Source: Cystobasidium ongulense (taxonomy: Eukaryota; Basidiomycota; Cystobasidiomycetes; Cystobasidiales; Cystobasidiaceae). From it: a stretch of DNA of 64,000 nucleotides. Under the pieces are notes generated by a model. The model saw nothing but the letters and a program-made list of their open reading frames with translations, was not told the DNA's origin and searched no databases. Shown here one piece after another: positions 13,241 through 63,207 of the stretch (the first letter of the stretch is position 1; each line of letters begins with the position of its first letter). The stretch spans positions 62,001-126,000 of the forward strand of contig BQUP01000012.1 in the NCBI GenBank assembly GCA_022835595.1, read 5' to 3'. The position numbers and the translations under genes were made by a program.

Positions 13241-14565
13241 ATGTCTTGCGTCAATCCTGCTGCGGTCTGCGACAAGCTGCACAACGAACCCATGCTCGGA
13301 GAGTCTCTCGCCAATGCCTGCAAGCGACCGCCGATGCCAGCACTTCCAGACGAGACCATAGTCCAGATCTTCCAACACGTTGCGAGTGATATTCGTCGAG
13401 GTATTCCGGTTCATGAATGGTGGAACCTTCCACCCGAGTATACTGCATTCTTCAACTCGGCTTCACTCGTTTGTCGAAAGTGGATTCGACTCGCACAAGG
13501 CTTCAAGACGACATTGTGCCTGCCGGCGAGCGAGCTCTACCTGATCCCAGACGATGCCGTGTGGAGATTAACCGTTCCCGAAGAATACTGGCTATGGAGA
13601 GAAAGGCGTGTTGATCATCTAGAGTCTCTTCCCGATTGCCTTCGAGAAAGCAAGCCAAACGTGGCTCACATCACCTCGCTTTCCGTCGATTTCGACTACT
13701 GGGATTCCCCAGATCTGCAACCGTTCTTCAAGAGTCTCTCTCTTAATCGCGTTCGACTCTACGGAGGAATACAGAACAAAACTTTGTACTGGCCCGATGC
13801 GACGTATCTTCACTCGAATTTCATCTGAAAGAGCTCTCACTTGGCGCCCTCTTCATCGAGCTCACTAACACCTTTGTCGATATACCGTGCCCATGCCCGA
13901 AGGTGGTTCTGAAAGATGTCATCTCCAATTTCCCAGCGAACATTGTCAGCCTCTTTCCCAACTTGAACCACCTAATTTTCGGGCATGTGGTTAGTATATA
14001 TAGCATCCACTCAACCGATTTGGTATCGCGGCCCAGTGCTAAGCTTGAGCATCTCGACATTCAATGTACGCCCGAGTACTGGGATCAATCTAGTGGTCTC
14101 AAAGAGAAGTCCAGCATCTTGAGCAGTCCAAATCTCCGAACTCTCAAGGTACATATACTTGGGTCGACAAATGCTTTTACACGGCCAGCAACCATTCCGG
14201 ATGGTCTGCATCGACATATACCAGGCTATGAAATGCGCAACCTCTCCAACCTAGAGGTCATTGTAGACGGCGATGAATCTTGGGCATTTTACCTTGTACT
14301 GCTTTGCGAACGTCTCAAGAAGCCCGACTTCTGCCCTAAGCTCAAGCGGCTGCCGAACCTACGCGTTGAACCGGAACAGCAGGAACTCAATAAGGAAATG
14401 AAACAATCAATGCCCAACTATATCACCAGAACCAAAAACGGCGACATGCTGGACCGCTTCAAAGCGCGTGGCATACAAGTCCGGCCGGAAGAGGTAGAGG
14501 GAACGATATGGCAATATGCTCAAATTGCACAGAACTTGGCGCAAACCAGTAGCAACACAATCTGA
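13241..14565 (+). pseudogene. F-box-like protein, divergent paralogue, with a frame discontinuity
   Basis: Head-to-head paralogue of the 11743-13054 gene, 186 bases away. It has an F-box-like start (MPALPDETIVQIFQHV, then SASLVCRKWIRLAQG), Leu-rich repeats and the shared C-terminal pattern of a helix followed by RFKARGIQVRPEEVEGTIW, matching GLRARGISIDPKKVEKTLW in the neighbour. The first frame stops at 13828; the rest of the homology (LKELSLGALFIEL onward to 14565) is one frame away, switching at about 13,780-13,820. No intron of normal size fits. The ATG at 13241 is chosen as the nearest upstream of the F-box; 13133 is an in-frame alternative. Function beyond a likely SCF adaptor is not determinable. 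Confidence 0.6.
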
Positions 14566-43321: not shown

Positions 43322-44391
43322 ATGGACTTCTCAGGTGTCAAGTCAGTCCTCCGGCTTGTATGCGTGGGTGATATCACAAGAATGGGCACGTGCTAATATA
43401 TATATCCATGCTTTTCATTCTCTGAAGCTCGGGTGTAGCCTTGATCACAGGCAAGCGCGAAGACGATGCGGTGTGTGCACAGAGATGCAGGCTGATTGAA
43501 ACTGTTTACAGGCGGCGGATCAGGTATCGGACAGGCAACAGCTTTAGCCTTCTGCAAGAATGGAGTCTCCAAGTTCGCCTTACTGGACATGAATCACGGG
43601 GGTCTGGAAGAGACCGCGAAGCAATTGCAAGCAATCAACAGCAACGTCGATGTGAAGGTCTACCTGACAGACGTCTCGCAGGAGGAGGAAGTGATTCTGG
43701 CAATAGAAGGTGCTTATAGGCATTTCCATCAACTCGACTACGTTGTTCAGTCCGCCGGTTTAAACCAAAGGCCGCGAGCTCTCCTTCACGAGACAGAAAT
43801 GGTCAACTTCGACAGAGTATTCAGCGTTAATACCAGAGGTCTGTACATCGTACAGCGCGAAGCGGTCAAGCGAATGCGAGGACAAAGCGCCTCCCAAACC
43901 GGCCAGAAAGGCTCTATCGTGAACATTGCTAGTATTTCGGGTATTCAGCCAACCCCGAATCTAGTACCAGTGAGCTCAGTTCAAAGGGCTTGGTTGGTCG
44001 TAACTCATGTGACACTATCTTTCACAGTACGCCGCTTCAAAGGCCGCTGTCATAGCCTTGACCAAGGGTGATTCGCAGGCATATGCTGCAGAGGGTATAA
44101 GGGTCAGTCTACTTTCGCTTGCTGCAACTCTTTATCGCCTAATGTTGTATTTTCATTCTCTCTCTCCACCTGCAGATCAATTGCATCTGCCCTGGAGTCG
44201 TACTGACGCCAATGAACAAGTCGAGCATAGCTGCAGGAGAAGACTTCTCTGTGATGTTAAGCGGAACGCCAGCAAACAGAGCAGCTCAGCCTGAAGAAAT
44301 CGCCTGGTCGGCTTTGTTCTTGTCGCATCCTAACAGCAGCTACATTATCGGACATGCGCTCGTAGTGGATGGAGGCACGACTCTGACGTAG
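43322..44391 (+). CDS. short-chain dehydrogenase/reductase (classical SDR), cluster gene 1
   Basis: NAD(P)-dependent alcohol/ketone oxidoreductase. Motifs: ITGGGSGIGQATA cofactor loop, DYVVQSAGLNQRP in place of NNAG, NIASISGIQ with the catalytic Ser, and YAASKAAVIAL with Tyr-x3-Lys joined across an intron. The C-terminus is INCICPGVVLTPMN then YIIGHALVVDGG. My exon path for the N-terminus is 43322-43341, 43428-43450, 43512 onward, giving MDFSGVNSGVALITGGGSG; intron 2 then has a GC donor (GCAAGC at 43451). The first two short exons are less certain than the rest. It is the first of nine metabolic genes running to 63.2 kb. Confidence 0.85.
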
Positions 44392-44467
44392 ATGCAATGC
44401 AACTCAAAATTTCTCGAAACGTCACACTCTTATCGAGCTGAAACAGCTTCCAATAGTACTTTTACAT

Positions 44468-45918
44468 TCACATAATAGCCATGACGTTGGCTGTTGCAAC
44501 AAGAAAGTCAGCCGAGGTTCAGCAGGCTCGTAATTTAGCACGACTTACGAGGAGAGCCGACGCCGCCAGGTACATGTAAAGGAGAACTCGTCAGGAAGAA
44601 GGACCATCGCTTTTGTTCCTCGCAGAGCCTGGACAGCTCCTCTAGGTTCCACATCTCGCCAATTGGCATGCCCCATTGCGAAAGGAACCACTCGTGCACT
44701 AGATGGGCCAATCTCAGTACTAGTCTCGCAAAGTGTATTATTCGAGAGACTACTCACAGCATCTCTCGCCCTTTTTGGGCGGCCATGCCTCAAAAGCTAC
44801 TGTGTCGCCACCAACTGCAGCAAAGTGTTTGTTCCAGAACCATTCGACCGCTGCCGGTGAAGATTTAACACCAATAAATAGCGCCTGCTCAAAAGTCCCT
44901 CTCCGACGTTCCGCTTCGCTTGCTTGATTATGCCAGGCTACGAAACCAAGTCTTATGAGCAGAATATCGGCAGGTCGTAGCTCTACCCCTTGGTATGCAG
45001 CGACCTTTTCAAGATCCTCGTGTGGTACTTCGTGCCTCTCGATAGGATTCAAATCTGGTGCATTCGGATTGGTTTCTCGGCGCCATCGAAGCCAGTCGAG
45101 TAAGACACCTCTTCCAGCTATTCCACCAGCCTTGCACCAATGGTCGATACCGTTGTTTTCTTTGCTGCCAGAAGTGATTTCTTCATGTGTTGAGCCATTG
45201 TAGTACAGACCGGAAATCTCTGTAAAGGACGTCTCTGATCAGTCTGCAGAACGTCGATCCATTGACTATGTTCTACTGACGGTGGGCCACATGTCTGAAG
45301 CCATCCCACTGACTTCCGCCCTGAGCTCATCAGAGCATCAGCTAAGTGGCAGGAGACTGATTAGGTCCGTATCTGTGCCCACCTGTGTATTGAGACTAAT
45401 CTAATAATACGTGTCAGCACTTGCTCAAGATTGTCTGAATGAACCGGCCAGCTTACTTCGTCATCACAACCTATCCACCCCGTTGCAGGATTCGCTTTAC
45501 TGATAACAGTCTGCTCGAACTTCTTTCTCTTGAAACCAGGGAACTGGACATTGTCTAACGACCAGTCTAATTGCACGCGCTGACCAGTCTTGATTTCTTC
45601 GGCTGCTGCTTGTTTGACTCTTTCCGATGTCAGGAGATTGAGGCCTGGAGTTACACCAGAGATGATGTGTGCAGGTGAGTCCAGCGCATCTCACAGAGAT
45701 AAAATGGTGATAATGGACTCACGCCCCAGCTGATCCCGCTTTGACTTGTCTTCTGTGTAATAGTTCCACGCGCATCCAGCTGGCTGTCCCTCCACAGCAG
45801 GCAATTCGTGAAAGTCGCACAGATGCATGGCCGTAATTTTCGTCCGAGTTGTGTTGTCGAGATGGGCTTCTAGCTGTCGAGCGCGTGCTTCTGCTGCGTT
45901 GATACTGCTGCTGGTCAT
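44468..45918 (-). CDS. PF04199 cyclase-type hydrolase, cluster gene 2
   Basis: Member of the cyclase/kynurenine-formamidase-like metal-dependent hydrolase family, whose members open lactams, formamides and cyclic carbonyl compounds; substrate unknown. Exon joints rebuild the family pattern: DQLGRLNLLTSERV, DDEISLNTQWDGFRHVAHQ with metal-binding His residues, ISGLYYNGSTHEEI, AGGIAGRGVLLDW, RPADILLIRLGF, and the end LHVPGGVGSPPNVMAIM. Exons 45723-45918, 45457-45644, 45383-45400 and 45281-45308 are phase-consistent; the last two are only 18 and 28 nt. The NALAI-like ending after SPP is usual in fungal members. Head-to-head with the second SDR gene, 208 bases between starts. Confidence 0.85.
45383..45400 (-). 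other. 18-nt microexon of the cyclase-type hydrolase gene
   Basis: Encodes Ile-Ser-Leu-Asn-Thr-Gln between ATTAG and GTGGGC, in phase 0 at both ends. The next exon (45281-45308, 28 nt) encodes WDGFRHVAH, so the metal-binding motif is spread over two tiny exons. Confidence 0.75.
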
Positions 45919-46126
45919 GGCAACTTGAAGTTGGCCGAAGATGCCGAAGTCGAATAGCCGTCCAACCGGCGAAGATGTGGGGGAAGATCAACGCTCGGCC
46001 TTTTCCCAGTGTGCAGCTTTACAAGCAACTCGTCAAGAGTCTTCTTGCTTGTCCATTTCATCAGTACAAGTGCAAAACGCATCCAGATACTTCACCCCTG
46101 CTTCTCTACTCGCTACACTCATCAAC

Positions 46127-47190
46127 ATGGGCAAACTCGACAACGAAGTCGCGATTATCACCGGGGTGAGTTCTCCAAATTCCGTCTTTTGCTTCGATCA
46201 ATCTTGCTGAGAGTACTCGAACAGGGTGCCAGCGGACTCGGTGCTGGAATAGTAACAAAGTTTGTCGCAGAAGGCGCCAAGGTACGGCACTCGTTCCGGT
46301 CTTTCGCCTGGCCTGGGTCCAGTCCCTCGAAGCTCTTTGCTAACTTCACGTGCAGGTCATCATTCTGGATTTCAACATCAAACCGTTAGAAGGCAAGACA
46401 CTTTCAGAAGCAATCAAGGTTGTTCAAGGCGATGTGTCTAATCCTGACAGCTGGAAGCAGGCTCTCAAAGTTGCCCTCGACACTTTCGGAAAGCTCACCA
46501 TTGTTTGTAACAATGCAGGCATTTGCACAGACTCGCTTGTAGGTCAAGAAGCAGCCTTACATCGGGTCACGGTCACTGACCATAATCACAAACAGCCTAT
46601 GCACGAGATGCCTATCTCTACCCTAGATGGACTGCTGTCGGTCAATCTGAAGGCAATCTTCGTGTCGGGCCAGGTCATCTTCCCATATTTTATGGAGAAC
46701 AACATCAAAGGAGCTATGGTCAACACTATCAGGTACGTTTTTCGTGTTGTTGAGAATTAGAGCCACGCTGAAGCATCTCCTATGGAATACAGTACAAGTG
46801 CGACGCGACCTCGACCAGGACTAGCCTTCTATGCGTAAGCCCTCTATCACAGTGGTACTGCTACTCAGCATTGACTCAAAGCACCGTGTTCTTTCCAGTG
46901 CCTCGAAAGCTGGTGCTGAAGGCGCAACAAAAGCTCTAGCCATTGAATACGCAAAATACGGCATCAGAGTATGCGGTGTCTCGCCTTCTATCGCGAATAC
47001 GCAAATGGCATTCAACCTTACCGGTGGTAAGAACAGCGAAGAAGCAGCTAAATCGCTGGGTAGCACTCTACCTTTAGGCGTTATTGGTGAACCTGAGGAT
47101 ATTGCAAACATGGTAGCGCAGCTAGCCTGCTCAGAGAGCCGTGTCGTTACCGGTATTATTGTTGCTGTTGACAGTGGTCGTTGCATCTAA
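46127..47190 (+). CDS. short-chain dehydrogenase/reductase, cluster gene 3
   Basis: Classical SDR. MGKLDNEVAIITG joins across an intron to GASGLGAGIVTKFVAEGAK (TGxxxGxG cofactor loop); later KLTIVCNNAGI (NNAG), NLKAIFVSGQV, the Ser region STSATRPRPGLAFYA and, after another intron, the YAASKAGAEGATKALA catalytic segment, then VCGVSPSIANTQMA. It ends VDSGRCI with no obvious peroxisomal signal. A short insertion (about residues 100-125) precedes the ISTLDGLLSVNLK segment. Only moderately similar to the SDR at 43.3 kb, so not a recent tandem duplicate. Confidence 0.88.
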
Positions 47191-47452
47191 GAAAGACCAG
47201 AATGAATATGTAGCAAGTAGTCATCAGCGCAAGCCTTCAGTTTCCGGACACCTAAAGTTCGAAGCAGTTCGAACCGTCATCTTTTAATCCTCGGTTATCT
47301 TCTGTACGGGGAAACTTGTGAATTATATTTTATTCAAGAATTCTAGAATCACACGATCTCTATAGACGAGAGCTAGCCCAGCCTTCTTCATGCCAGATAT
47401 GGCCTGACTGTGATACAAATGCACCTGAGTACTTGATTATCGATTTTGACCT
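47191..47452. other. convergent 3' intergenic region
   Basis: Short AT-rich region between the second SDR and acetoacetyl-CoA synthetase. Nothing else recognised. Confidence 0.5.
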
Positions 47453-50433
47453 TTAAAGCTTGGCCTGGCGTTCGACATTAGCCTTGTACCACTTAGCGTA
47501 GAATTCGAAGAGATCTGGATTTGCCACGCCTGTATTATTGATGCGGGCCAGTGGTGTGCCGTTGCTGTGTCAGTGCAGCAAAAATAAGTCAGTCTCATGC
47601 TGTAGCACAGTGCGATTACAGCTTCACTTACACAATCTTCTTCACGCTGCTTTCGAGTTTCTTTCCGCTCAGTGTCACCGGCACACCGGGAGAGGCTTCC
47701 ATGACGGCAGGAACGTGTCTTCTGCTCAGTCTCTGTGCGATGGTTGCTGATATGTTCTTGATGAGATCCTGCTTCAATGGTTTGCCGTCAGGAGTGACGA
47801 CGAAGAGCAGTACCCGTTCATCTCCATTCTTCAGCTTTTGTCCGACTGCCAATGAATCTATCACATCGTGCTTGAACTCTTTCTCCAAAATATAATATAG
47901 CTCTGCTGATCCGAATCGGACACCACTTGGATTCAAGACTCCATCGGACCTGCCTAGTAGCCAGCTATATAGACTTGTCAGCTGTTGCAGCCCTGACGAG
48001 GGGTTATTCAACTCACATCCCGCCATTTTTGCTACTTTGATACACATTATCATTCTAAGGAGGGCCGTATAAGTCAAGTCTAGAAGCACAGGCAGAGCAG
48101 CAGAAACGCACCATATTGAACACAGGATGGTCAAAATCGACGAAGTAAGTCTCTTGATATCGCTTGCCCTGAGGATCGTCTAGGAATGCTAGCGGCATGT
48201 TGGGGAATGCCGTACGGATTACCATTGTGCCTTCCTGATCTTTGACAGGTTTCCCTTTACGTGTGGCAGTGTTAGTTGAGACTCTTAAGTCGCGAGATCA
48301 GCGACGCGTACCTTGTTCGTTGTATACCACGAGGTCGACTCCCAGAGCTGGGACTTGTAACTGGCCTTTGTATGCGGGCAAGCAGTGTGTGCTGTGAAGG
48401 AGGGCTCCGCCAATTTCTGTTGTACGTATAGAAGCGTCAGGATGCATGGAGATGCCTGGTACTCGGTGAGGGGCGCTACTGACCTGTACCCCCAGCATTG
48501 TTTGACACGAACACCCCTCCAAACTGTAAAAGTTGGGGGTCTTAGTGGCGGGTTCTCACCTAAGAGCGCAGGTGTGGTCTCGGTACCTACCTTGTCAACC
48601 CAATCATAGACGTCGTTGGTTACGGGCGACCCAGTCAAGGACAGTTGCTTCAAGGAAGATAGGTCGTGATTCTTGCGTGGATCAAAGCCGCTCCTGGCCA
48701 GACTCTGAATATATCTAGGAGACACTCCCAGCTGGACAGCCCTGTGGTAACATCGTTTATGTTAGAAATTGAATATAGAAACATGCATCTCGGGTATGAC
48801 CTACTTGTACTTCTCTACTAGACGCCACATGACCTCAGGCGGATGAAAGGGTGAGCCGTCGTAGCATAGTACTGTACCGCCTGTAGCGAGGAAGTTGATG
48901 GAGAGATTGTATACGATCCATCCCATCTAAGTAAGGTGTCAGCTGGAGTCTGATAGATGACTAGATTTCTCCTACTCACGGTTGAGAATTGCAGCATGGT
49001 ATCTCGATGGTCCAGGCCAAAGTGGAATCTGTTGGTCATCTTGCGAGAGAGTATGAGACCTCCACCTGGACCGAGCTGCATAGATATCCCATTTGGTCAA
49101 TTGAGCGTCTGCTCATTCTGGGGACAATAGGCTCTCACAATTGACTTCGGCTTGCCAGTGGTACCAGAAGAGAACACGATCCAGATAGGGTGGTTGAAAT
49201 CACCTCGGTAGAAGGGTATCGTCGTTGGCTTAGCGTTGCCAATCTTCATAAAATTAGACCAGCTTTTGATTGCTGGTCCGGTCGCGTAGCCTGTAAGGGA
49301 GGCAGTAGATGGTTTTCTGTCTCTTGCTAGATGTCCTATCACAATGACATGCTCTAGTTTGCCTGCTTCGGTGAGTGCTTTGACAACGGTCTTGGCTCGT
49401 TCCGTCACGTCATGTGTTTTGCCGCCATACCGATACGAGTCGATGGTGAAGAGGATCTTGGGCTGAAGGAGGGAGTAGCGGTCGATGACTGCATGTGCAC
49501 CAAACTCCGCAGGTGTGGACGAGAAGAGTGCCCCGACTGTCATGGTGGCAAGATAAACAATGACCATCTCGCAATTGCTAGCACCGAAAGTGACGACGGA
49601 GTCATTTGGCTTGACACCTAGCTCTGTCATTGCATATGCTGCCCGACCGACTTCCTGGTAGAGCTCTTCCCATGTCAGGCGCCCGAGTTCGACAGGTTCA
49701 TTTGGGTTTGCCGACTCTCTGTCCGGTTCGACTGTACTAATGACAGCATGCCTTGTCTTGGATCGCGCATTGGGGTGCGATAAGAGCATGTTTTCTGCGG
49801 CACTGTGTGTAGAGAAGGGTTAAATACTTGCATGTTGCCGATCATGAAGCTGGACCCACTTGAACTTTGCGCCTGGAAACCAGTTTTGCGGCTTGTTGAT
49901 GGGTATGCTGCTGTCGTAGCATGGCTGTTGGCAGAGATAGTTCGTGTCAGTGCGCCCTTGTGGATATAATGCTTCACTCTTCGGCAGCGCGAAGACTGGG
50001 ATCAAGTCCACGGCCTGTTCTGCCCACGGCAAAGGGCCTATAGAAGAGCCCAACTCACAGCTTGTCCCTTCTCTCCGATTAACCCGCAGTAGTCCCAGAC
50101 CTACAATGAGTAAAGTCAGCTCCTTCTCAGCGCTGGCGGGCATTCGTTGCCATCCGCCTTCACCTACATCGCTCCAGAACTCTTCTGGCTTTTTGCACGA
50201 CCACTCGTGCAGATCCCAGTAGTTCTTGAAGTTGTAGCCGTGAGTCTTGTTGACAGCCTTCCTGAATGTATCAACAAAAGGCTCTTCGTCCTGAGAGTGC
50301 AGTACGGAAGCAAGCAAGGTGAGCAGTGCCACCTCTCGGACAACTGGAAGGAATTGTTGCAAGGCTCTGAACGCACCTCATGCGGACGGGGCCCGTTTGT
50401 TGGCCAGAAGTGCTCGAGCTGCGGGTTTGACAT
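47453..50433 (-). CDS. AACS: acetoacetyl-CoA synthetase, cluster gene 4
   Basis: ANL-superfamily acyl-CoA ligase that activates acetoacetate (or a similar 3-keto acid) with ATP and CoA. About ten exons. N-terminus MSNPQLEHFWPTNG, then FWSDVWDYCGLIGEKG assembled across introns, and FPGAKFNWAENMLL. The AMP-binding motif is IVFSSGTTGKPKSI; downstream are GVSPRYIQSL, SLKQLSLTGSPV, FGGVFVSNNAGGTEIGG, YSWLLGRSDGVLNPSGVRFG and, near the end, VTLSGKKLESSVKKIVNG with the conserved acylation-site Lys, then NPDLFEFYAKW, all AACS-specific. The annotated start is the ATG of the conserved N-terminus; an in-frame open extension reaches upstream to 50700. Head-to-head with the thiolase gene. Confidence 0.92.
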
Positions 50434-50702
50434 GATCTTGATGTTGGAAAAGGTCAAAGATTTACTTGTCGTCTGCTTCAGCTCTGTCGCAGGCAATATG
50501 ATGGTAGAAGCCGCCGGCAGGGCTATGTCCAGCTGGAAAACGCCGAATGTCAAAGCATGCACATTTCTCTCATTCACCAGCACGCCCGGGCCTTTCTTTC
50601 TCACGAGAAGCTCAAGAAGTGTCTGCAAGCGTCCAAGACGTGCCTCCAAATCTACGTACTCTGTCTCTATAGCCTCCTCTCCCTCTGGTGCATTCACCAA
50701 AT
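50434..50702. promoter_or_regulatory. bidirectional promoter between AACS and thiolase genes
   Basis: Only 269 bases separate the two start codons, so the two genes must share regulatory sequence. It holds a GC palindrome GCCCGGGC near 50584 and a GCCGCCGGC near 50513. The whole interval is also open on the minus strand in frame with AACS. Confidence 0.55.
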
Positions 50703-52309
50703 ATGAGATCTGTCAACCGGGTGAGGCAAGTAGCCGGACACCTCAAACCATCTGGAAAGCAAGCTTTGCTCGACAAGGCAGATGATGATGTCGTGATAGG
50801 TGAGGCCCCACAACTGTCTCTCATGCCTCTACATCTAGAGATGCAGAAGCTGGTCGACCTTCTTATGCTGCAAAGCTGACAACGCTTTCGTTTATGCTCT
50901 GTTCCTACAGTCGCGGCAAAAAGAACTCCTCTGACCAAGGCGAAAAAGGGCGGCCTCAAGGATGCTTTCTTCGAAGAACTGCTCTCAGCTGTCTTGAAAG
51001 GTGCCATTATGTCTTGCAATCTGAATCCAGAGCTCGTTGAAGATCTGCAAGTCGGTACTGTCCGAACACCTCGAGGTGGCGCTACGATTTCTCGTATGGC
51101 AGCATTGCATGCTGGCCTGCCTGAAAGTTGCAGTGTTTCGTCCGTTAATCGACAGTGCAGCAGCAGTCTTCAAGCTATATGGACTATCGCCAACCAAATT
51201 CGCAATGGAGATATCGACATTGGTATTGGCGCTGGTGTGGAATCCATGTCCAAGCATTACAACAACGCGGTAGTCGACCATGAACTTTCGAGCGAAATAC
51301 AGTCCAATGCATGTGGGTCGAGATCATCTTCGTACAATGCTATCTGATCAGCATTAGAGCCTAGTCAGTCGCTGATGCCTGAACGTTTGCAGCCGCTAAG
51401 GATTGCCTGCTTCCAATGGGCATCACTAACGAAAACGTAGTTGACCAGTCCGTACTATTTCTATCTAGCTGTACACATCGTAAGCTCGACTGACATTGGG
51501 TACAGATATCACATCTCTCGAGAGCGACAAGACGAATTCGCAGCTCGATCGCAAAATAAAGCCGAAGCCGCACAGAAGCAAGGGAAATTTGTCGACGAAA
51601 TTATTCCTGTCATCGTGAATGGCCAGACCGTTTCTCAAGATGACGGAATTCGAGCTGGAGCCACAGCTGCAAGCCTTGCAAAACTTAAGCCAGTGTTCAA
51701 GAGCGATGGAACTACACATGCTGGCAACGCAAGTCAGCTTACAGATGGAGCCGCTGCTGTCATTCTAGCTAGAAGATCAGTTGCCAAGTCACTAGGTCTT
51801 CCAATCTTGGGCAAGGTCGTCAGCGTTACCACCATCGGCGTGCCCCCAAGAGTACGTCATCTTTCGAGTTGCGCGTATACGTATAGCTAAGAGTGTTGAT
51901 AACGCTCATGTTGCAGATCATGGGCGTGGGACCAGCTTATGCCATTCCAAAAGTCCTTCAGAGAGCAGGGATAACGATCGACGACGTGGACCTCTTCGAA
52001 ATCAACGAAGCCTTTGCAGGTCAGGCGTTGATGTGCGTTGATAGTCTCAAGCTTGACGTCAAGAAGCTCAATCCGAATGGGGGAGCGATCGCACTCGGTC
52101 ATCCACTTGGTGCGCACGCATTGGCAGAGATCAATTAATAAATGTTTGTATGAAGCTAATGTCCCATCCCCCGGTTAGGAGCTACTGGAGCTAGACAAGT
52201 CGCGACGGCATTTAACGAAGCCAAGCGCACCGGTGCTAAAGTGATAGTGACCAGTATGTGTGCTGGCACAGGATTTGGAATTGCCGGCCTCTTCGTCAAC
52301 GAGCAATAG
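50703..52309 (+). CDS. peroxisomal 3-ketoacyl-CoA thiolase with PTS2, cluster gene 5
   Basis: Thiolase that cleaves 3-ketoacyl-CoA to acetyl-CoA and a shortened acyl-CoA in the last step of peroxisomal beta-oxidation. The N-terminus [18 protein letters not shown] contains RVRQVAGHL, a match to the PTS2 consensus R-[LVI]-x5-H-L. Then [19 protein letters not shown], the acyl-accepting Cys in [53 protein letters not shown] and, near the end, the general-base Cys in [13 protein letters not shown]. Six or so exons; the last joins HPLG to ATGARQ. It ends NEQ without an SKL. The start is fixed by PTS2 and by the upstream gene 269 bases away. Confidence 0.93.
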
Positions 52310-52939
52310 TGCTCGCTCAGCCCAATCCAATAAGATGGGATGTTGTTAAGGTATAAATTATATAGAGCGAGCATTCGAAAGAATGTAAGATACAATTGTC
52401 GTGACGACCGTATACCCTGTCTATAGAGCTTGATGACGACTTCATTGTGCGGGTCAACGCAGGGATTTGAACCTGCTGCACGCAAGTCAACGACAATCCT
52501 GCTGGATACCGACATCTCAGATTGAGGTGGTGATCATCAATACCAGTTGAATTGAGTGTGGGCAGTTAAATTTCTGTGCTCTTCTCCCACGTGACCGTTT
52601 CACTCCGGTCCAGACTATGGCAGGACTCGAAGGCTCGTCCGACGAAAATCGGCACTTTTCCTCAAAAGAGTCCTTATGTATTGCCCCTCTCGCAGTACAG
52701 TGGTCACAATTAGATATTTGCCTCCTGCATGCACCGGTCTCGCCAAGTAGGTAAAATTACGGTCAACTCGACCCGTTTTCTTTTTGCTTGGAAGATCGAA
52801 CGCCCCGGCGTCTTAACCGGACATGTTCACTTCTTCTTTCCACCCATACCGGCGTCCTGGAGAATGAAGTCTGGGGTCCCCAACTCTTCCTTCTTCTCTT
52901 CTTGCCTCTCATCCTCACAACAAAAAGCTGACCCGCAAG
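52310..52939. other. intergenic region, thiolase / symporter
   Basis: Thiolase 3' flank and symporter promoter. It contains a tRNA-like fragment (52450-52500, minus) and, upstream of the symporter, several CGG/CCG triplets including an inverted pair at 52806-52819. Confidence 0.6.
52806..52819. promoter_or_regulatory. candidate Zn2Cys6 site CGG-N8-CCG
   Basis: Inverted CGG and CCG triplets separated by eight bases, about 120 bases upstream of the symporter ATG. Zn2Cys6 dimers bind such pairs; a Zn2Cys6 gene lies 5 kb downstream. Spacing preference is unknown and chance occurrence is possible. Confidence 0.3.
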
Positions 52940-55057
52940 ATGGCTGCTGTACCCGAGCCTGTTCCCCAGCTTTCCAACCTTGAAGACAAGGACGCCAACC
53001 TATTCGTTGAAGGAAAAGCCGAATCCTCTCTGGCTAACGGACACACTCCTGAATATCAAGAATACTTAAGGCTCGAAAATGAAGTGTTCATTGGCAAGAC
53101 CAAATCAAAACTTCTTAGAAGAATGGATATTCGTGTAACTTTGCCTCTTGCCGTGAGCTGCTTCCGTCTACCCCGCCGAAGTGCAAAGCGGGTTGGCTGA
53201 TAATTCCGCCTCGTACTATGCCAGTTCATTTACCTTGTGGGCTACATTGACCGATCCAATAGTAAGTTGGGATGCGTTAATACCATCCAACTGATTGCAA
53301 GTCCTGAACCTGACCCTTGTTGCTCAACAGTTGGTAATGCCCGTCTGTTCGGTCTCGAAAAAGACTTGGGTATATCTGCCAGTCAATACAACATGGTCCT
53401 CACTTCTTTCTTCTTCACCTATGCCTTGTTCGAGATGTAGGTATATATCCTCTCGCTTGCTATAAACCCTTCTAACGACCAATTGACTTTCGTCCACAAG
53501 TCCTGCCCAAATCCTTAACAAAAGAATCGGACCCCGCATCTTCGTCTCTGGCATCATGACCATGTTCGGCCTGGTCACATTATGCACTGCCTTTTCCTTC
53601 AACTATGGTGGCATCATTACATGCCGGCTTATGCTCGGTGTCTTCGAAGCTGGCCTTTTCCCTGGAGTTATTTATGTTCTTTCCTACTGGTACTCCCGAT
53701 GGGAGTTGCAGACACGTATTGGTAAGTCAGGCATTTACGATTGGAGACACTCTCACCCGCATGGAGGCTTACGATCTCACTACTATAGCTATCTTCTACG
53801 GAGGTGCTTCGGCATCCGGCGCTTTCGCCGGTAGGTCTACAACACAAATGTTCAAGTAGTGGCTGGACTGACCAACTCTCGTTCTCAGGTCTGCTCGCTT
53901 ACGCAATTGCCAACTTGGATGGCAAGTTGGGTTACAGAGCGTGGCGGTAGGTCTCTTACCTCCTTGGTCTCTGTCGATTCTCCTCATTGATTGAATTCCT
54001 GACATGCCTCGTCTTCTCTACCCTTGCTTTCTCTCCCTTTGGCCTGTAACAATAGCTGGATCTTCGGTGAGTCTTACTGCAAGCTTTTCGTTCTCCGTCC
54101 CATCCCTAACCGGTCCCGTCCACTTCTCAGGTATCGAAGGTCTCGCCACTCTCCTCATTGGCATTTCCGCCTATTTCTACATATCCGAGACCCCCGTCAA
54201 GGCTAAATGGCTGAGTGAAGAAGAGAAATCATATCTCAGTCTCCGTCAAAGGTACGCAAGCGGACCTACACCATCAACAAGCCACTTCGAATGGAAGTAC
54301 GTTATTCAAGCCCTCCGGGACTGGAAGTCATACGTCGGCTGCCTCCTCTTCTTCGGTACCTCCATTCCTGTGTATGGCCTATCGTTCACCATGCCAACAA
54401 TCGTCAACAACCTCGGCTATAGCGCTGCACGTGCCCAAGGCATGACGGCGCCGCCTTACCTTTTCGGATGCTTGTCCTGCGTTGTCTTCGCACTTGTGGC
54501 CGATAGAATCAAGCAACGTGCTTACGTCATGGCAGCCGCTTTTGGTCTCGCTCTGATAGGATTTGCAATCGTCATGGGTACCGCTGGAAACCCAGGTCTT
54601 ACTGGAGTCACCCTTTTCGGCATCTTCCTCACGGCCGCCGGTCTCTACTCTGCAACTCCTCCTATGATGGCATGGGTCGCCAACATCTTTGAAGGTGAAG
54701 TCAAGAGAGGTATTGCCATTTCAATCGTTCCTACAATTGGTCAGTTTGGCGGTGTCGTCGGATCCAACATTTATCTCGTCAAAGAAAAGCCTTTCTACCA
54801 CACCGGGTTCGGTGTCTCTATCGCAGTTGTCTTATGCTGCGGTCTCTTTACCACTCTTGGTCTCCGATTCGCATTGGCTCGCATCAACCATAACCGAGAC
54901 CAGATCCCTATCGAGGAGATTAGAGCCAAGTATACTGAAGCAGAGCTCACGGAAATGGGCGACATGTCGCCTTTGTACAGGGTGAGTGACCTGTATTTTC
55001 CACGCATACGTGCCGCATCATACTAATACGTTTCGGCTTCGTCAGTATCCCCTATAA
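52940..55057 (+). CDS. MFS anion:cation symporter (allantoate/nicotinate permease type), cluster gene 6
   Basis: Plasma-membrane H+-coupled importer of small organic anions, Dal5/Tna1 family. About seven exons. After an acidic N-terminus come RRMDIRVTLPLA, YLVGYIDRSNIGNARLFGLE joined across an intron (the D-R-x-N-I-G-N-A-R family signature), YNMVLTSFFFTYALFEIPAQIL, MTMFGLVTLCTAFS, CRLMLGVFEAGLFPGVIYVL, IAIFYGGASASGAFAGLLAY, RAWRWIFGIEGLATL, ISETP and a C-terminal six-helix half. The most likely end is not the read-through frame but a last intron leading to YPL-stop at 55057, matching the usual short MSPLYRY-type tail. Its cluster position suggests import of the pathway substrate. Confidence 0.9.
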
Positions 55058-55284
55058 GTACTAGATCTTATTTTCCACTCGAATGGAAGTGTTCAAGCCA
55101 GACTCTTTGCTTGCTCACTGTTTGATTGTGGCACCGGTGGTAGGATAGCACATACACACAAGTATTGTTCTGTAAGATATGCTACAATATGGCTCAGGTC
55201 GCGATCATCGCAAGTGACGGCAGATCGTATGTAAACGCTGTTCATGTCTGGAATTAGACCCTTTGGGGTGTGGTATTGTCGCTT
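55058..55284. other. convergent 3' intergenic region
   Basis: 3' flanks of the symporter and the Zn2Cys6 regulator. No feature. Confidence 0.5.
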
Positions 55285-58200
55285 TTACAAGGAATTGCTA
55301 GTATTGTCAATAGCATTGCCGAAAATATTTGCAGTATCGAAAAAGTCATTGGACTCTAAAGGAAGCCAATAATCGCTCTTGAGCAATTCGGCCATCTCGT
55401 CCACAGACATATGCGCCACATCCAGGTTCGCGCCTGGGAAATCGCCATTGAAGAATGGGGAGAGTCCAGAGGATGGCTCATCCGCGAACATGTTCAACAC
55501 ATTTCCACCCAACGGCGGCATTGTCAGAGTCGGATCTGTGTTTTGCGCTTCCTTGGCGGCATTATCGGATGGCTCTGGTGTCGGATGTCGAGTAGGCAGA
55601 CGAGTTTGCAGCTGGTTGCGGAGAACGTGGCCCAGCTGTAAACCATAGATTCGAGACCTTCCCAGGCGGTGCGGGGGATAACTTCCTAGATCGCACAGTC
55701 GGCGCTCGACTTGAGACAGGAGGACATAAATAGAGGTTTCGACCGAGGACCCGACCTAACGACATTCCCAGGCGTAAGCAAGACAGCTGATTAACGCTCT
55801 CCAGCATTACATTGACTCACGTCGCTCCACTGTACCAATACCTTCAGGACGAAGGCAGCAGCGTATGCAACCATAACGAAAGTGTTGTTGACGAGATATG
55901 TCAAGACATTCTGGTCGGGGGCTACGAAAGCTTGTAAGGTTTGCAAAGCGGCTAATAGCGCCTGCTGCAGGACTGCTGTCTCCGTCGACTTTCCGACATG
56001 CTCTTTCAGCGTTGTGATCAGAATACTGAGAGTCGTATGGTTCCTGTAACAATGGTGGCTTAGCATACGGCTACTGCAAAATTCTGATGTTCAGCTCACC
56101 CAACGATTGAAAGGTATGCCGCATTTGTGGCCCTTGGAAGCCACAAAGATAGCCAGGAAGACCTATAGATACCAATATTGAGTTCTGAGAAGTCACGGTG
56201 CACATTATAACAAGCTACTCACAGAAATTCGCTGATGACCACCCTAACGATCTGAGGGCTGGGCTGAGCGGCGGATGAAGAATTGTGGCCTGTACCATGC
56301 CTGGTGACAGCAGAAAGAACGCCCGGCTACCAAGAGAGAAGGACAAATCAGATCTATGCTCATCTCTTGCGTACAGAACAGTTGCTCACGACATCCCGCC
56401 TTAGCGCGACCATTGCGCTCAAAGTCCAATCTTCGGGTATAGCTTCCGGGCTTGTCGCCCATTGCCAGACTGCCCCGACCAGGTCCTTCTTTTCCGCAAT
56501 AGAGAAACCAAGAGGTTCTCCCATGACAAGAGCCGAACCTCGATCATAGTTGAAGAGTGTAAGGTAGGTGCGTTCATATGAGCGCGCCATGAGACACTCG
56601 TGTGCAGTCGAACTACCGAAATCACTTGAGATGCGCTTGAACTTGTCGTAAGCCATCGATAGATAAGTACTGGTGGTGTCCAGCGCCACGTGCGTTCCGG
56701 GATCCTAGATGATCTGTCAGTATCGGTACAGCATGACGCATCAATTTGTGGCTGTTGAACTCACCAACCAAGGGCAGAGTGCGCAAAAGCCTTGCACTGT
56801 ATCTAGAGATACGTTTCCATCAAGGATAACTTTGGCTACGAGTTTCTTTGTGTGTTCATCCAGTCGTTGGGCTGCCGCAGCATAGCCAGGTACGAACCTG
56901 CAACGAGTAAGTCAGACAAAGTCCGTGTAATCTCGTCTTACCGTTTACTCACTTAGCCGCGGACGCCATCATGGCTGTGAAGAGAAAGGTGGATCTGCTT
57001 CGAACATGCGTGAAAGAGTGCAGCCGGGAGTCGAACAGAAGAACCTATAAGAATAGAAGATCAGTAACCTGTGCACTTCGACACCAGGTTTAAAGACTGG
57101 GCTGGGCGCACAAGTGGCTGCAGGTGCTTCCAGAAAACATCAAGTAAGCAGGTTGCTTCCTCTTCTGTCACTATACACCGCCATATTGGATCGTTCTCAT
57201 GATCGTAGTCGAGCAATTGTGCGGCATTGGCGCTGCTGAAGTAGTTCGTATGGGTGACAAGGTGTCCCACGAGCGAGCGTGGGCCCGGTCGCACAATATC
57301 CAGATGGCCCCGCATGTCCTGGAAAAAGGGTTCTAAGTAAGGCGGGAATTAGTTATCTTGCTTTCCTTGCAAGCACTTGAAGTATAGGGGTGACCTACGG
57401 TCGGCCGCTCCTGCTGCCGCCAGCAATGCTAGTGGGGACTGTTATAGCATGGCTCCTATTAGACACGCGCGCGTTCATATACATGAATCGAGCACCCTTA
57501 CCCTTGTGAACGATTGTGGCTGACCCTTACCCGCTCCATTTAGATGGAGAGCCACAGACCCGTCGTTGCTAGATAGCAAGTGGTGAATGGAAGCCGCCTG
57601 GGCTTGTGGATCGACCGGGTTACTAACACCGGAGGAGGTGAATACATTGCTTGTGTTGGTATCGAATGCAGACTGCTGCGGGAGGGACGCTGTCTCGTGG
57701 GAAGGTGAGGCAAGGAATGTACTGGGGAATGTGGGAATAGGGAAATACGGGGCTGCTGCATTTGGGACGCCTATTGAAGAACTTTGTGTCTGGTCACTGA
57801 ACGACTGATACGAATGCTGAGAAGTATACGAGGGCGACTCCTGTGCTCTACTGCTTTCATTCGCTGAAAGGGCCGGTATATTGATGTGGGAGGCCTGTTC
57901 AGGGTATCTCTGGACTGGTCCATTATGGCTGGTGGAAGCCCAAGGTATGGAATGAGCTTGAGCATGTTCGTCTGTTGGTTGTACATGTGTCAGGGGAGCT
58001 GCCCTTGCTAATTTGCTGTTCAAAGTGGAAGACATCTACAGTCAGCTGGGCGCTTCTTGCAATTGTAGTGCCACTCACCTCGAGCCAGGTTTTCTTCCTG
58101 ATCTACGCGCCTTGGTCTCGCACGGGATACCAGCAGCTATGCAACGCTTGCAGCTTTCCAGCTCACTGCTTCGTATGCATTTCATCTTGCCTGCAACGTT

Positions 58201-58568
58201 AGGCAAAGCGGTAGCATCAGCTCTCGGCGTCTTTGGATCATTGCATATCCGGCTGCTCACTCCCACGACCTGCGAACAAGCTGAAGTCAGCCGCGAGGTA
58301 TGAAACAGTAGAGACAGCCTTTGCACTTACAGTAGACACACGCTGTCTGGATTGTTGTGCTCTTTTCGCCCTTCTTCCTCTTAGGCGGCCCTTGTTGACC
58401 AGTCTGGCCACCACTGTTGCCTCGCGAAATGGAAGAAACATCCAGCGACAGGGACCCAGCTCCGGCGGCGCTGCCTTCTTGACTACGGCTGGTCGAGCCT
58501 GACGAGCTGCTTGCATCACTGTTCGGCGAGCGTGCGCCAAACATGAGTGCTCTCATGTTCTTGTCCAT
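55285..58568 (-). CDS. Zn2Cys6 transcription factor, cluster gene 7
   Basis: Binuclear-cluster regulator, nuclear, likely controlling nearby genes. The zinc cluster is assembled from three exons: 58331-58568 ends ACVYC, a 9-nt exon at 58261-58269 adds RG and part of Ser, and 58079-58190 continues KMKCIRSSELESCKRC then IPCETKARRSGRKPGS. The result, C-x2-C-x6-C followed by C-x2-C-x6-C, is the full six-Cys pattern. Then a Ser/Pro/Gln-rich linker, and a fungal-TF middle region with MRGHLDIVRPGPRSLVGHLV, EEEATCLLDVFWKHLQPLV, LLFDSRLHSFTHVRRSTFLF, SMAYDKFKRISS, SYERTYLTLFNYDRGSALVM. The acidic end, SVDEMAELLKSDYWLP, looks like an activation domain. At least eight exons. Confidence 0.88.
58261..58269 (-). 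other. 9-nt microexon inside the zinc cluster
   Basis: GTCGTGGGA lies between TTCGCAG and GTGAGC. Including it gives CVYCRGSKMKC with the canonical six residues between second and third cysteines; skipping it gives only three and would break the cluster without shifting the frame. Confidence 0.8.
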
Positions 58569-59246
58569 GCTTCCTCTTCCAGCTTCAAGCTATCGCGTCA
58601 AGTTTGCGGATTGAGAAGGCTGTGAGCAGGTCTTCCGTAGTTCTAGTTCACGAGGTAGGTTCTATCATGCCAGGGTGCAATAGCGAGGTGCTCAAGATAC
58701 AAGCATCAAACATGCTGCTTTGCATTTCGGTTCCATAGAGTCAACACCCAATCGATTAATTGCTGCCATTCAGAGCCGGACGCTACACATGTGCATCACA
58801 TTCTACAGACCAATTCCGAGTAGCTCACCAAGATCAGAGAATACGAGTTACTCGACGAGATTCCGTACAGCCGCCTTGACACTTCCTCTCGAGTTTTCGT
58901 CCTTACTTCCCCGCCACATACCGGCGCCATGCATCATACCGCCCGGGCAACCATTGCATGATCAAATACACAGGTAGAGACAAGACGACCGACAGTATAT
59001 CTGGACCAGTAGCTTTGGCTCTGCTTATACAGTGCCTTCAACATGGGTAGGTACATAGCTTCCACGCGCAAAGCCTCTATGGCTCTCAATCTGTTCTTCC
59101 AAGACCCGGTCTTTCGCTGAGTTGCTTCGGCTCTTTAATCGGCGTATCAAGAAGGAGGGGAGGTACTTACAACAGCTGGTTGATGAAGTAGCCGGACACT
59201 CTTCTTCAGCTCTTTACTCATCTATCCCCATCGCAATCTTCACACA
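58569..59246. other. divergent intergenic region, regulator / monooxygenase
   Basis: Shared upstream region of the Zn2Cys6 regulator and the Baeyer-Villiger monooxygenase. No clear repeat or RNA; short open frames lack family features. Confidence 0.6.
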
Positions 59247-61667
59247 ATGGTAACTGCCGTTCTTCCCATCCCTCAAGCCACTCTACTCAATGGGTCAAAA
59301 AGTACTTCGAGTGAATCTCCTCCTTCTCATGTTCCCTCCACCTCTAATGGAGTGAAATCGAACGGTATCTACAAGGCTCAAGCCAGTGGCGTCACCAAGC
59401 CTGAATACTATGTCAATGGCTACCATAAAGATATCCCGACCCCAAGTCAACGCGTCCAAGAACCTCGGAATAGCTGCGATGTGGTTTTCGGACCTAAAGA
59501 TAAGGAAGACAACTCATACAGGATGCTTAATCAGCCTTTGGGCCAAAAGCGGCCACTAAAGGTTATCTATCTTGGAGGGGGTGCATCTGGTAAGCTTGTC
59601 CGCTATAGATTCTCATTACTATCAGTCATCTTTGCTCACACCTCCATTCGATCGCGTACAGCCATCAACTTTGTATATCGTGCAAGATCTCACCTTCCTG
59701 ATATTGACCTCGTCTGCTATGAGAAGAACAGCGGTCTTACCGGAACATGTAGGTTATATCAGACTGCTCACTCGTGCAGGAGGTCGAGCTGACGACACGC
59801 CTCAAAAAGGGTTCGAAAACAAGTATCCAGGTTGTGCTTGTGATATTCCAAGTCACACTTACCAATTTACCTGGGCACTATACCCAGATTGGCCAAAATA
59901 GTAAGTGAACTTCTGAGCTACTGCAATCGCGCGTTCTGACAGTGTCGCAACAGCTACTCCAACTCTGATGAGATCCAAGCATACATGGAAAAGGTCGTTG
60001 ACGATCACAATCTTCGAGACGCCTTCAAGCTTCGCCATGAAGTGGTAGGCGCTCAGTGGAACCCCGAATCCTCCCACTGGATCATCACTATCCGTCGCAA
60101 TGGCGATGATGCCGATGTTTTCGAAGATTGGTGTGATGTCTTCGTAAACGGTTCAGGTGAGTTCCCAATTAGCATAAACGCCACTGTCTATGACCACCGG
60201 ATTAACCTTGATCTGTGGACTCAGGCTTGCTCAATGCATGGAAATGGCCTGCTATTCCTGGCCTTCAAAGCTTCAAGGGTCCTCTGCTGCACACTGCTGC
60301 TTGGGATCGCTCTGTGAACCTCGATGGAAAGCGCATTGCTCTCATTGGAGTAGGAAGTTCAGGTGTGCAGGTCCTCCCTGCGCTTCAACCCAATGCCGAG
60401 GTAAGCAAGGGGTATATGACTTCAAATCTATGTCATTTCGTTAATATCTTACACCGCAAAACAGCACATCTACCACTTCGTTCGGTCAAAGACTTGGATT
60501 ACCCCCTCCTTCGCAGCAAAATACGCTGGTCCAGAAGGTCGCAATTTTGAGTATACCCAAGAGCAGAAAGACGAATTCAGAAATGACCCCACTGCTCAGC
60601 GTGCATAGTAAATTGGAAGATGCAGCTGGAAATACAACGTTAGCTGACCCTCATAATTCTACATAGCACGAAAGCAATTGAATACGAACTCAACAAGCGT
60701 TGGAAGTTTGTCATCAAAGACTCCGAAGCACAGAAAGACATTTTTGCACTTTTCACTGAAGAAATGATGAAGGCTTTAGATGGCCGCCCTGATTTACAAA
60801 AGGCTTTGATCCCCGACTTTGCTGTAGGATGCCGTCGTCTGACTCCAGCGCCAGGCTTCCTCAAAGCTCTGTAGGTTCTATAATCGGCTGTCCAGTCGAT
60901 TTGACATCACTGACACTACCCATCCCACCAGGCAAGAGCCAAATGTAACAGCCGTCACCTCTGGAGTTATCAAAGTCGATGAGACAGGTGTCTTCGACAC
61001 CACCGGCAAGCATTACGAAGTTGATGCTGTCATTTGTGCCACTGGGTTCGATATCTCGTTCCGTCCTCGCTTCCCTGTCATCGGGCGAGACAATGTGGAC
61101 CTGCGCGACAAGTGGTCTCCCCGCGCACGCGCATACCACTCTCTTTTCGTTGATGGCTTCCCTAACTACATCCACCTTATGGGACCCGGTTCACCAAGTG
61201 CTCATGGCGCCCTGCTGGGATCCAGCGAGCACGTCGCCGACTATGCTATCCAAGTTCTGCGCCGTCTGCAGACGGAACCTATCAAGACAATCGAAGTCAA
61301 GCCCGAAGTAGTAGCGGAACTTGCAGAACACAGTGCTGAACAGCTTAAGACGACTGCTTGGGCATCAACTTGCTCATCTTGGTTTAAGAACGGCACAACC
61401 GATGGTCCCCTGGACTCGCTTCATCCAGGTGGCCGATTGCATTTCTTCTCCACGCTCATAAACCCGCGGTGGGAGGACTTCAACTATACTTACAGCAACA
61501 ATAGATTTGCGCATTACGGCAATGGCTTCACATTGAGGGAGATTGAAGAGAGGGACTTGGTGAGTCGGCTCGGTCGAGTGTCAGGAGGTATTCAGCTGAT
61601 TGACACGGTTCCTCCACAGACTTGGTATTGGTCGTCAGGCGAGCGTCTCCGTCTTTTCGATTACTAA
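59247..61667 (+). CDS. Baeyer-Villiger flavin monooxygenase, cluster gene 8
   Basis: FAD- and NADPH-dependent enzyme inserting oxygen next to a carbonyl, turning ketones into esters or lactones. Six or seven exons. The N-terminus is Ser/Asn-rich before the first dinucleotide motif KVIYLGGGASGINFVYRA. Exon joining gives GLTGTWFENKYPGCACDIPS and HTYQFTWALYPDW, the family GTW-x-N-x-YPG-x-x-CD block. The BVMO fingerprint F-x-G-x3-H-x3-W is present as FKGPLLHTAAWDRS, followed by the NADPH-site IALIGVGSSGVQVLPAL. Later VGCRRLTPAPGFLKAL, VICATGFDISFRPRFP and the C-terminal substrate region. Divergent from the Zn2Cys6 regulator; convergent with the reductase. Confidence 0.9.
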
Positions 61668-61806
61668 TTCAGTGGATGGAAGTTCCAATCAGGTTAGAGC
61701 ATGAGTACCCTGCATCATCGTTCGTGTTCACAATGGTCTAAAGGTTTCAATGTAGTGGTTTGCAGATCTGTAATCTATTCTGTATTTGGCGAGCAGTTGT
61801 CCCAAT

Positions 61807-63207
61807 TTACCATTTCTTGGCATGAAAATTCAAAAGATCGTCTATCGTGTCTATGAGTGTTGTTTTCCAATCTATGAAGCTTTCCATCCCCAGCTTTCTT
61901 CGAGCGGCAGTAGTATCCAACTTTGCGAGCTGCTCTATAGGTGTTGCATCGGGGTTCGGTCCTGGTAGCTTGTCCGCTAGATCAGGCCGCGCCTCCTTTA
62001 AGAATTGAGCTGCCTCTTGCCATGTGAAGCTGCCTCCGCAGAGAATAAAGCGGTGACCAATGCTCTCGGGGTTCCCCAAGGCCAACAAATGTGCTTTGGA
62101 CACATCGCGAGCATCGCAGAACAAGGGCAATCGATCCTCGGGCAGGATAGCTGTCTTGCCACTAATTAGATTCCAAATATTGCCAGTAGAAGTATTGACG
62201 GCCGCTTCAGTCGGGATCTTCTGCAAAGAAGGTCCGTAGATCATGGGTGGGCACACTATCAGATACAGAGATTAGTGATGCAGCTCTGAAAACGCTGCGC
62301 CAGCCAAAGGAACGCTTCACGCACTGGTTGTAATTTGCATCTCAGGGTGTTCCTTTGCAAAATCCCAGGCCGCCTTCTCTGCAAGCCTAGCATGTCAAAA
62401 TTTAGCACTTCTGTAGGGAGACACGCGCTGCGGGTGATGCTGCGACATCCTATTTGATCACGAAACTTACTTCTTTGAAGCTGAATAAGCATACGCGCCT
62501 TGTACATCTGGAGCAGCGGCTTCTTCATAAGTTGCCGGGTTCCAGTCCTCCTCTGTGTAGGTATAGTCTCGTCTAATGCCTCCAAGCTTGAAGTTGTTGA
62601 TAGCGGCGAATGATGAGGTGATAATTACCCTTTTCACGCCTACAGCTTGAGCTTGACGAAGGACGTTCAGAGTACCTTCGATTGCTGGGTCTAAGAGGTC
62701 TTTCTTAGGACTTTAGGATGCGAATGATCAGAATACACGTTTGCTGTATATAGACTATAGCCCACCTCCGCTTACTCGGTTATTTTGAAAGTGTAGGGCG
62801 AGGCCACGTGCAGGACGGCATCGACACCTTGGAGAGCCTTGGACAGATCTCCATGAATCAGATCCTTCACTTCGAAAAGTTCGATGTTGGCGTCTGGAAA
62901 TTGCTTGATGCTGTCTTGACCGCGTGAGACATCTCGGACGGTAGCTCTTATCTTGTACTTCTGTTTAACAAGATCATGCAAGATCTGAGCGCCAAGGAAA
63001 CCAGTCTGCAGTTGTGCATGTTAGTATCTCGTATCGATGTTCAGGTATCGGAGCATGTGTCTCTGTCGCCCGAGCAATTGCACCATTCCACTAATGATGT
63101 CTCCCCGCCGTCATGATACAGCGAAGTTCTGCAATGACCTGCGAGCGACACAGCTTGGTCAAGCTGGCATCACCTACTATGCTGGTTATAAGGACCGTTT
63201 TAGACAT
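61807..63207 (-). CDS. NAD(P)-dependent reductase, dihydroflavonol-reductase-like, cluster gene 9
   Basis: Extended-SDR reductase of the DFR/methylglyoxal-reductase (Gre2) type. Five or so exons. MSKTVLITSI joins to TGFLGAQILHDLVKQKY. Further motifs: IRATVRDVSRG, LSKALQGVDAVLHVASPYTF, EGTLNVLRQAQAVGVKRVII, TSSFAAI with catalytic Ser, AYAYSASKKLAEKAAWDF with Tyr-x3-Lys, PPMIYGPSLQ, LFCDARDVSKAHLLAL. The usual first Gly of the G-x2-G-x2-G loop is Ser here (LITSITGFLG). It ends DTIDDLLNFHAKKW. The 2-ketone or aldehyde substrate is unknown; it may be a pathway gene or the border of the run. Confidence 0.87.

Follow-up and report, generated by a model that had tools for sequence, protein, structure and literature searches.

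A putative catabolic gene cluster of Cystobasidium ongulense in which a Baeyer-Villiger monooxygenase accompanies a PF04199 metallo-hydrolase and a ligase-thiolase pair

The bacterial cyclohexanone degradation cluster provides an alcohol dehydrogenase, a Baeyer-Villiger monooxygenase (BVMO) and ring hydrolysis, with an alpha/beta-hydrolase lactonase and an aldehyde dehydrogenase. Many BVMOs occur in fungi, and substrates are known for only a few. The locus considered here is a block of nine genes at positions 43322–63207 of a stretch of 64,000 nucleotides from the basidiomycete Cystobasidium ongulense (hereafter the window; positions 62001–126000 of contig C12, BQUP01000012.1, in a genome of 19.77 Mb and 19 contigs). 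In keeping with a basidiomycete source, the acetyl-CoA synthetase of this genome has its best match in PDB entry 5ifi, which is from a Cryptococcus. It probably constitutes a fungal catabolic gene cluster for import, Baeyer-Villiger oxidation, metallo-hydrolysis and peroxisomal breakdown of a beta-keto acid. Its hydrolase belongs to PF04199, whose classical amidohydrolases, such as KynB and isatin hydrolase, have the metal motif H-x-G-[T/A]-H-x-D-x-P-x-H according to the accessible part of PMC6117287. A modified motif, Gln-x3-Gln-x-Asp-x3-His, is described in the accessible part of PMC5341072 for MGS0169 (PDB ID: 5IBZ), a metal-dependent carboxylesterase of metagenomic origin, and also for the trans-dienelactone hydrolase of Pseudomonas reinekei. 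According to the same text, MGS0169 is a metal-stimulated esterase whose activity on pNP-acetate is about 1000-fold above that on isatin, and which is inactivated by mutation of Gln127, Gln131, Asp133, Arg87, His286 or Glu299.

All nine genes could be rebuilt as complete, intron-containing models whose reading frame is uninterrupted between ATG and stop codon (after correction for the two short-chain dehydrogenases, SDR1 and SDR2), and the outermost start codons lie exactly at 43322 and 63207. The models were obtained with a codon/splice dynamic-programming finder, and introns were then corrected by hand. One setting of the finder fused the region of the ligase (AACS) and the thiolase (THL), and the other broke up the thiolase, the carrier and the regulator, so that the final models are partly hand-spliced, with the protein families as guide. 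No additional gene among the nine was listed under either setting, and Pfam gave family support for 9/9 proteins. The first-pass annotation of this DNA, which had described nine consecutive genes of named families and no polyketide, peptide or terpene synthase, is thereby confirmed on both counts, since Pfam places no such synthase among the nine.

The PF04199 hydrolase (CYC; 44468–45918, minus strand, 7 exons, 358 aa; 2.3e-12) is well over the Pfam gathering score (47.8 bits for a cut-off of 23.1), and 5ibz (3.9e-27) is the one solved structure related to it in sequence. The classical H-type motif is not present in CYC, which has QGGSQWDGFRH instead (Q134-x3-Q138-x-D140-x3-H144), i.e. the motif of MGS0169, and its H303 and E316 align with His286 and Glu299 of that enzyme by a hand count on the 5ibz alignment. 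As the motif is of the Q type rather than the H type, cleavage of an ester or lactone is favoured over that of an amide, which suits a BVMO product. CYC would fit the role of opener of a BVMO-made ester or lactone, as a fit rather than a proof, and Q-Q-D-H proteins of PF04199 may, judging from these sequence features, be ester or lactone openers in fungi. A scan of bacterial genomes gave at least 539 relatives of CYC; the Q-Q-D-H motif is found in 73 of the best 80, a figure that gives no frequency, since QWD was part of the scan pattern. An earlier scan of bacterial genomes with both fungal hydrolases as queries returned zero relatives. On one plasmid (L046), a PF04199 protein with the classical motif (13495–14367; HTGTHIDALCH) has a Q-type neighbour at a distance of about 4 kb, showing both types side by side.

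The BVMO (59247–61667, plus strand, 9 exons, 640 aa; FMO-like, 3.3e-15) is a predicted type I enzyme. It carries the fingerprint F-x-G-x3-H-x3-W-D (FKGPLLHTAAWD) at residue 258, in agreement with the pattern F-x-G-x3-H-x3-W-[P/D] that defines membership, and of the two Rossmann G-x-G-x2-G motifs expected on either side of it, the second reads GVGSSG and the first GGGASA, with an Ala in final position. The best solved relative is steroid monooxygenase (1.1e-58), followed by cyclohexanone monooxygenase (1e-49) and phenylacetone monooxygenase (6.5e-44); these closest structures are ketone monooxygenases, which fits the predicted oxygenation of a ketone. Three further redox enzymes are encoded in the block. 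SDR1 is a classical short-chain dehydrogenase (43322–44391, plus strand, 263 aa; PF13561, 1.7e-49) with TGGGSGIG and YAASK motifs, whose hand-corrected model has 5 exons (43322–43341, 43428–43450, 43512–43969, 44028–44102 and 44176–44391). Its second intron (43451–43511) is of the GC-AG type, and was accepted because the TGxxxGxG motif is restored only with it. SDR2, also classical, is found at 46127–47190 (plus strand, 6 exons, 249 aa; PF13561, 3.9e-46). The last gene (61807–63207, minus strand, 5 exons, 336 aa) had been called a reductase resembling dihydroflavonol reductase; it is indeed an extended SDR (Epimerase, PF01370, 4.4e-18), but among solved structures NADPH methylglyoxal reductases (6.7e-50) are closer to it than the best dihydroflavonol reductase (1.2e-33), so that Gre2-type NADPH carbonyl reductase is the better label.

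A second, paralogous set of genes on contig C1 indicates that the cluster is more than a chance neighbourhood. A PF04199 search of the genome gives two matches only, CYC and a gene at C1:3088023, which likewise has a Q-x3-Q-x-D-x3-H motif (QSSSQWDSFRH). The latter is part of a sister cluster (C1:3087506–3107392) composed of the PF04199 hydrolase with an Abhydrolase_3 gene beside it, a regulator paralogous to that of the window and, between hydrolase and regulator, a BVMO and two MFS genes. The sister cluster further encodes a SnoaL_2 protein and several small proteins to which Pfam assigns no family. The only other matches of the window regulator in the genome at an E-value of 1e-3 are at C1:3102.9–3104.4 kb, and its reciprocal best paralogue spans C1:3102.5–3106.2 kb; in the reverse search, the window regulator ranks first among the other matches, and there are three weak single-exon hits elsewhere (C1:1774, C7:685 and C2:2270 kb). 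Sequence identities between window and C1 are 35% over 536 aa for the regulator, 43% over 324 aa for the hydrolase, 30% over 502 aa for the carrier and 39% over 525 aa for the BVMO. If genes were placed uniformly, the regulator paralogue would fall within 16 kb of the C1 hydrolase gene with a probability of 0.0016, and one of the seven other BVMO loci would do so as well with a probability of 0.011; the combined value of 1.8e-5 is a rough, post hoc estimate which takes the loci as independent. The presence of hydrolase, BVMO, carrier and regulator in two diverged copies argues for a functional module. Together with the Pfam assignments and the hydrolase motif, it supports the first-pass view of a compact metabolic cluster that has its own importer and regulator around a core of BVMO and hydrolase.

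In this genome, BVMO genes habitually group with SDRs, carriers or regulators, and of the loci examined the window is the fullest example. Besides weaker FMO-type hits, the window BVMO has multi-exon matches to eight other genes, spread over seven loci. For four of these seven loci, a Zn2Cys6 exon from a list of 28 lies no more than 11 kb away (P about 4e-5 with uniform placement); this list omits split exons such as those of the window regulator and of its C1 paralogue. The neighbours comprise two amidohydrolases and an SDR on C5 (by reading also an MFS gene and a regulator), an SDR and an aldehyde dehydrogenase on C10, an SDR and a sugar-type transporter at C7:929 kb, and on C3 an SDR with 36% identity to SDR1, while no clear catabolic set was seen among those of the C4 locus. 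At C7:316193–321203, the BVMO relative adjoins AtuA (PF07287, 8.2e-166) and, by reading, a regulator, and this is possibly a locus of terpenoid catabolism, AtuA being associated with acyclic terpene utilisation.

The ligase and the thiolase are transcribed divergently from a common region of 269 bp (50434–50702, from the gene models). AACS (47453–50433, minus strand, 14 exons, 726 aa; AMP-binding, 1.3e-42) ends in -AKL, which we take to be a PTS1-like tail (peroxisomal targeting signal 1), and THL (50703–52309, plus strand, 6 exons, 407 aa; thiolase Pfam families, 4e-77 and 2.4e-45) has R-V-x5-H-L near its N-terminus, presumably a match to the PTS2 consensus. THL is a 3-ketoacyl-CoA thiolase (TIGR01930, 413.4 bits for a cut-off of 240.55) whose best solved match is peroxisomal thiolase 2iik (1e-120). 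The acetoacetate-CoA ligase family activates beta-keto acids rather than omega-hydroxy or dicarboxylic acids, and its product is a thiolase substrate. Since the thiolase could use the product of AACS and the two genes have their divergent promoter region in common, they are read as a peroxisomal pair, and would form the predicted end stage of beta-keto-acid breakdown, in a location suggested by their terminal signals. Four more AACS-like genes are found in the genome (on C5, C6, C7 and C9), and the AKL C-terminus occurs in four of the five AACS-like proteins, that is in all those whose ends were read. Homologues of acetoacetate-CoA ligase may serve peroxisomal catabolism. The C9 gene (locus C9:27646–36414) is in a catabolic-looking setting, between an MFS gene (by reading) and a VOC/glyoxalase-type protein with a FAD_binding_3 hydroxylase. 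In the neighbourhood of the C7 gene (locus C7:677077–688798) are a metallo-beta-lactamase-fold protein and a protein distantly related to the window regulator (34% over 103 aa); within 20 kb there is also a thiolase with 60% identity to THL.

The carrier (52940–55057, plus strand, 9 exons, 516 aa; MFS_1, PF07690, 1.2e-48) has the D-galactonate transporter DgoT (7.1e-13) and sialin (1.5e-7) as solved relatives, in line with its earlier naming as an organic-anion symporter. The regulator (TF; 55285–58568, minus strand, 13 exons, 844 aa) is a Zn2Cys6 protein with cysteine spacing C-x2-C-x6-C-x8-C-x2-C-x6-C and a Pfam score (PF00172, 2.8e-4, 21.4 bits) above the cut-off of 21. It diverges from the BVMO across 678 bp (58569–59246), and CYC diverges from SDR2 across 208 bp (45919–46126), making three divergent pairs in all, again as delimited by the gene models.

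We propose that the anion carrier would import a carboxylated or otherwise acidic substrate, of which the SDRs and the Gre2-type reductase may set the alcohol or ketone state of a carbon, in whichever direction. The BVMO would then convert that ketone to an ester or lactone, to be cleaved by the PF04199 metallo-hydrolase in place of an alpha/beta hydrolase, and an SDR could oxidise the beta-hydroxy acid so released, giving a beta-keto acid. From the latter, the AACS homologue would make a 3-ketoacyl-CoA in the peroxisome, where the PTS2 thiolase would split it into acetyl-CoA and a shorter acyl-CoA. The gene of the Zn2Cys6 protein diverges from that of the BVMO, and this protein is a likely inducer-responsive activator, under which the genes may be co-regulated. 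As a tentative extension, the two loci could represent a regulon family in which a BVMO has a Q-type PF04199 metallo-esterase as its dedicated opener of esters or lactones, each pair being controlled by a regulator from one Zn2Cys6 subfamily; a peroxisomal ligase for beta-keto acids and a thiolase would have been added to the window copy, making up an undescribed route from cyclic or methyl ketones to acetyl-CoA.

Several observations weigh against this assignment. Arg87 of MGS0169 aligns with F103 of CYC, R105 being two residues further (hand count). AACS is under both NCBIfam cut-offs (575.4 bits for 639 with NF002937, and 504.2 for 520.9 with TIGR01217), and although its best family and its best solved relative (4wd1, an acetoacetate-CoA ligase, 3.7e-100) are of the acetoacetate type, it is classed as a homologue only. 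A scan of six cluster promoters for k-mers and gapped dyads, with 53 promoters as background, gave no common motif above controls: the top dyad, CGGN4TTC, with 8 sites in 5 of the 6 promoters, looked strong against this background, but was rejected, since 159 of 200 dinucleotide shuffles reached it, as did 121 of 200 random genomic sets. Among the best 80 bacterial relatives of CYC, of which some are on short contigs, neighbours were searched by blastp at 1e-10, and a BVMO is near the hydrolase in only 3 loci; other families were found in 30 (SDR1), 27 (SDR2), 4 (thiolase), 2 (MFS) and 1 (AACS), with none for the regulator and the Gre2-type reductase. There is no conserved pairing of cluster families with these hydrolases. 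As for the sister locus, its BVMO is not the closest paralogue of that of the window, those on C5 (42%) and C4 (41%) scoring higher, and no match to AACS or the thiolase was found by blastp in the 40 kb examined.

Having no counterpart on C1, AACS and THL are tied to the BVMO part by position alone, which raises the question of whether the block consists of two adjoining modules, namely an AACS-thiolase-SDR set for beta-keto acids or ketone bodies and a detoxification or scavenging module of BVMO, hydrolase, carrier and regulator. The C1 set, which has relatives of the second of these but no AACS or thiolase hit, speaks for such a division, as do the AACS-like genes of C7 and C9, which are in other catabolic-looking settings without a BVMO. 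The pair lies however within the block, with the hydrolase gene on one side and the carrier gene on the other, and not at its edge, and we consider the division rather unlikely. A classical cyclohexanone-type route, as put forward in the first-pass annotation, would lead from a cyclic alcohol through ketone, lactone, hydroxy acid and dicarboxylic acid to beta-oxidation. It would account for the SDR, BVMO, hydrolase and thiolase and for cyclohexanone monooxygenases being among the closest solved BVMO relatives; yet steroid monooxygenase outscores them, the ligase is of the acetoacetate type, and neither an aldehyde dehydrogenase, an alpha/beta-hydrolase lactonase, an acyl-CoA dehydrogenase nor a hydratase is among the nine, which makes this route improbable. 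BVMOs, SDRs, carriers and Zn2Cys6 regulators are also frequent in fungal biosynthetic clusters, and the nine genes might serve to tailor, or to protect the fungus against, a natural product with a core enzyme encoded elsewhere. We find this very improbable, as no core synthase is among the nine, the carrier resembles anion importers, and AACS and the thiolase, with their peroxisomal signals, indicate carbon recovery. A chance neighbourhood of common metabolic genes, which the abundance of SDR and MFS genes and the missing promoter motif would allow, is the least probable explanation given the second paralogous set, with its rough post hoc estimate, and the repeated proximity of BVMO genes to regulators, SDRs or carriers.

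The left boundary of the cluster is set by the motor part of a myosin heavy chain (37288–42807, plus strand; PF00063, 3.8e-217), to the left of which are ARS2, a Methyltransf_28 gene and a Fra10Ac1/ASCH gene. The right edge is softer: past the window, a doubtful small model is followed by an SDR (C12:127712–128881), 2.5 kb outside the cluster, which could be a tenth member, and then by a Pfam-less protein, an F-box-like protein below cut-off and a helicase. A FAD_binding_4/FAD-oxidase_C protein (C12:58449–60867), presumably similar to vanillyl-alcohol-type oxidases, is encoded next to an MBOAT gene just outside the left end of the window.

The nine genes and their diverged sister locus propose a partner hydrolase, importer and regulator for two BVMOs, so that a substrate could be traced through induction or deletion of a single regulator. 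Compared with the bacterial cyclohexanone cluster, the logic is alike, but the alpha/beta-hydrolase lactonase and the aldehyde dehydrogenase of the latter are absent from the nine. Plasmids with PF04199 relatives offer a second comparison: out of at least 133 records, 10 neighbourhoods were examined, taken from the upper rows and mostly annotated, and they contain an SDR (8/10), an AMP-ligase (6/10), a thiolase (3/10) or a BVMO-like protein (2/10, one without the strict fingerprint). Three actinobacterial loci (L041, L042 and L049) are most alike, having the hydrolase beside adenylate-forming enzymes and SDRs, with a thiolase in L041 and L049 and BVMO-like FAD enzymes in L042 and L049; their gene order is not that of the window, and a BVMO neighbour is as rare as the plasmid (2/10) and genome (3/80) counts indicate. 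MGS0169, as far as it is described in the accessible text (PMC5341072), has the Pfam family, the Q-x3-Q-x-D-x3-H motif and the equivalents of H286 and E299 in common with CYC, and differs in coming from a bacterial metagenome and in its Arg87, which does not align with an Arg of CYC. Zearalenone-type BVMO detoxification (PMC7416605, accessible part) was considered and dropped, since no feature here indicates zearalenone. A literature search, whose coverage is thin for subscription journals, did not find this gene combination named. The 3-hydroxyanthranilate/salicylate cluster of Aspergillus (PMC7842363) is fungal and catabolic, and likewise has a gene with the BVMO motif, an SDR, an AMP-forming (aryl-)CoA ligase and a transporter; it is however from an ascomycete and has its own 3-hydroxyanthranilate dioxygenase and partners, and the accessible part of the article mentions neither a PF04199 hydrolase nor an AACS-thiolase pair. 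In the degradation of methyl ketones by yeast (PMC4192553), a BVMO step is followed by ester hydrolysis, from ketone to ester to alcohol and acid, as proposed here, although that pathway is known from metabolites and a gene cluster is unmentioned in the accessible text.

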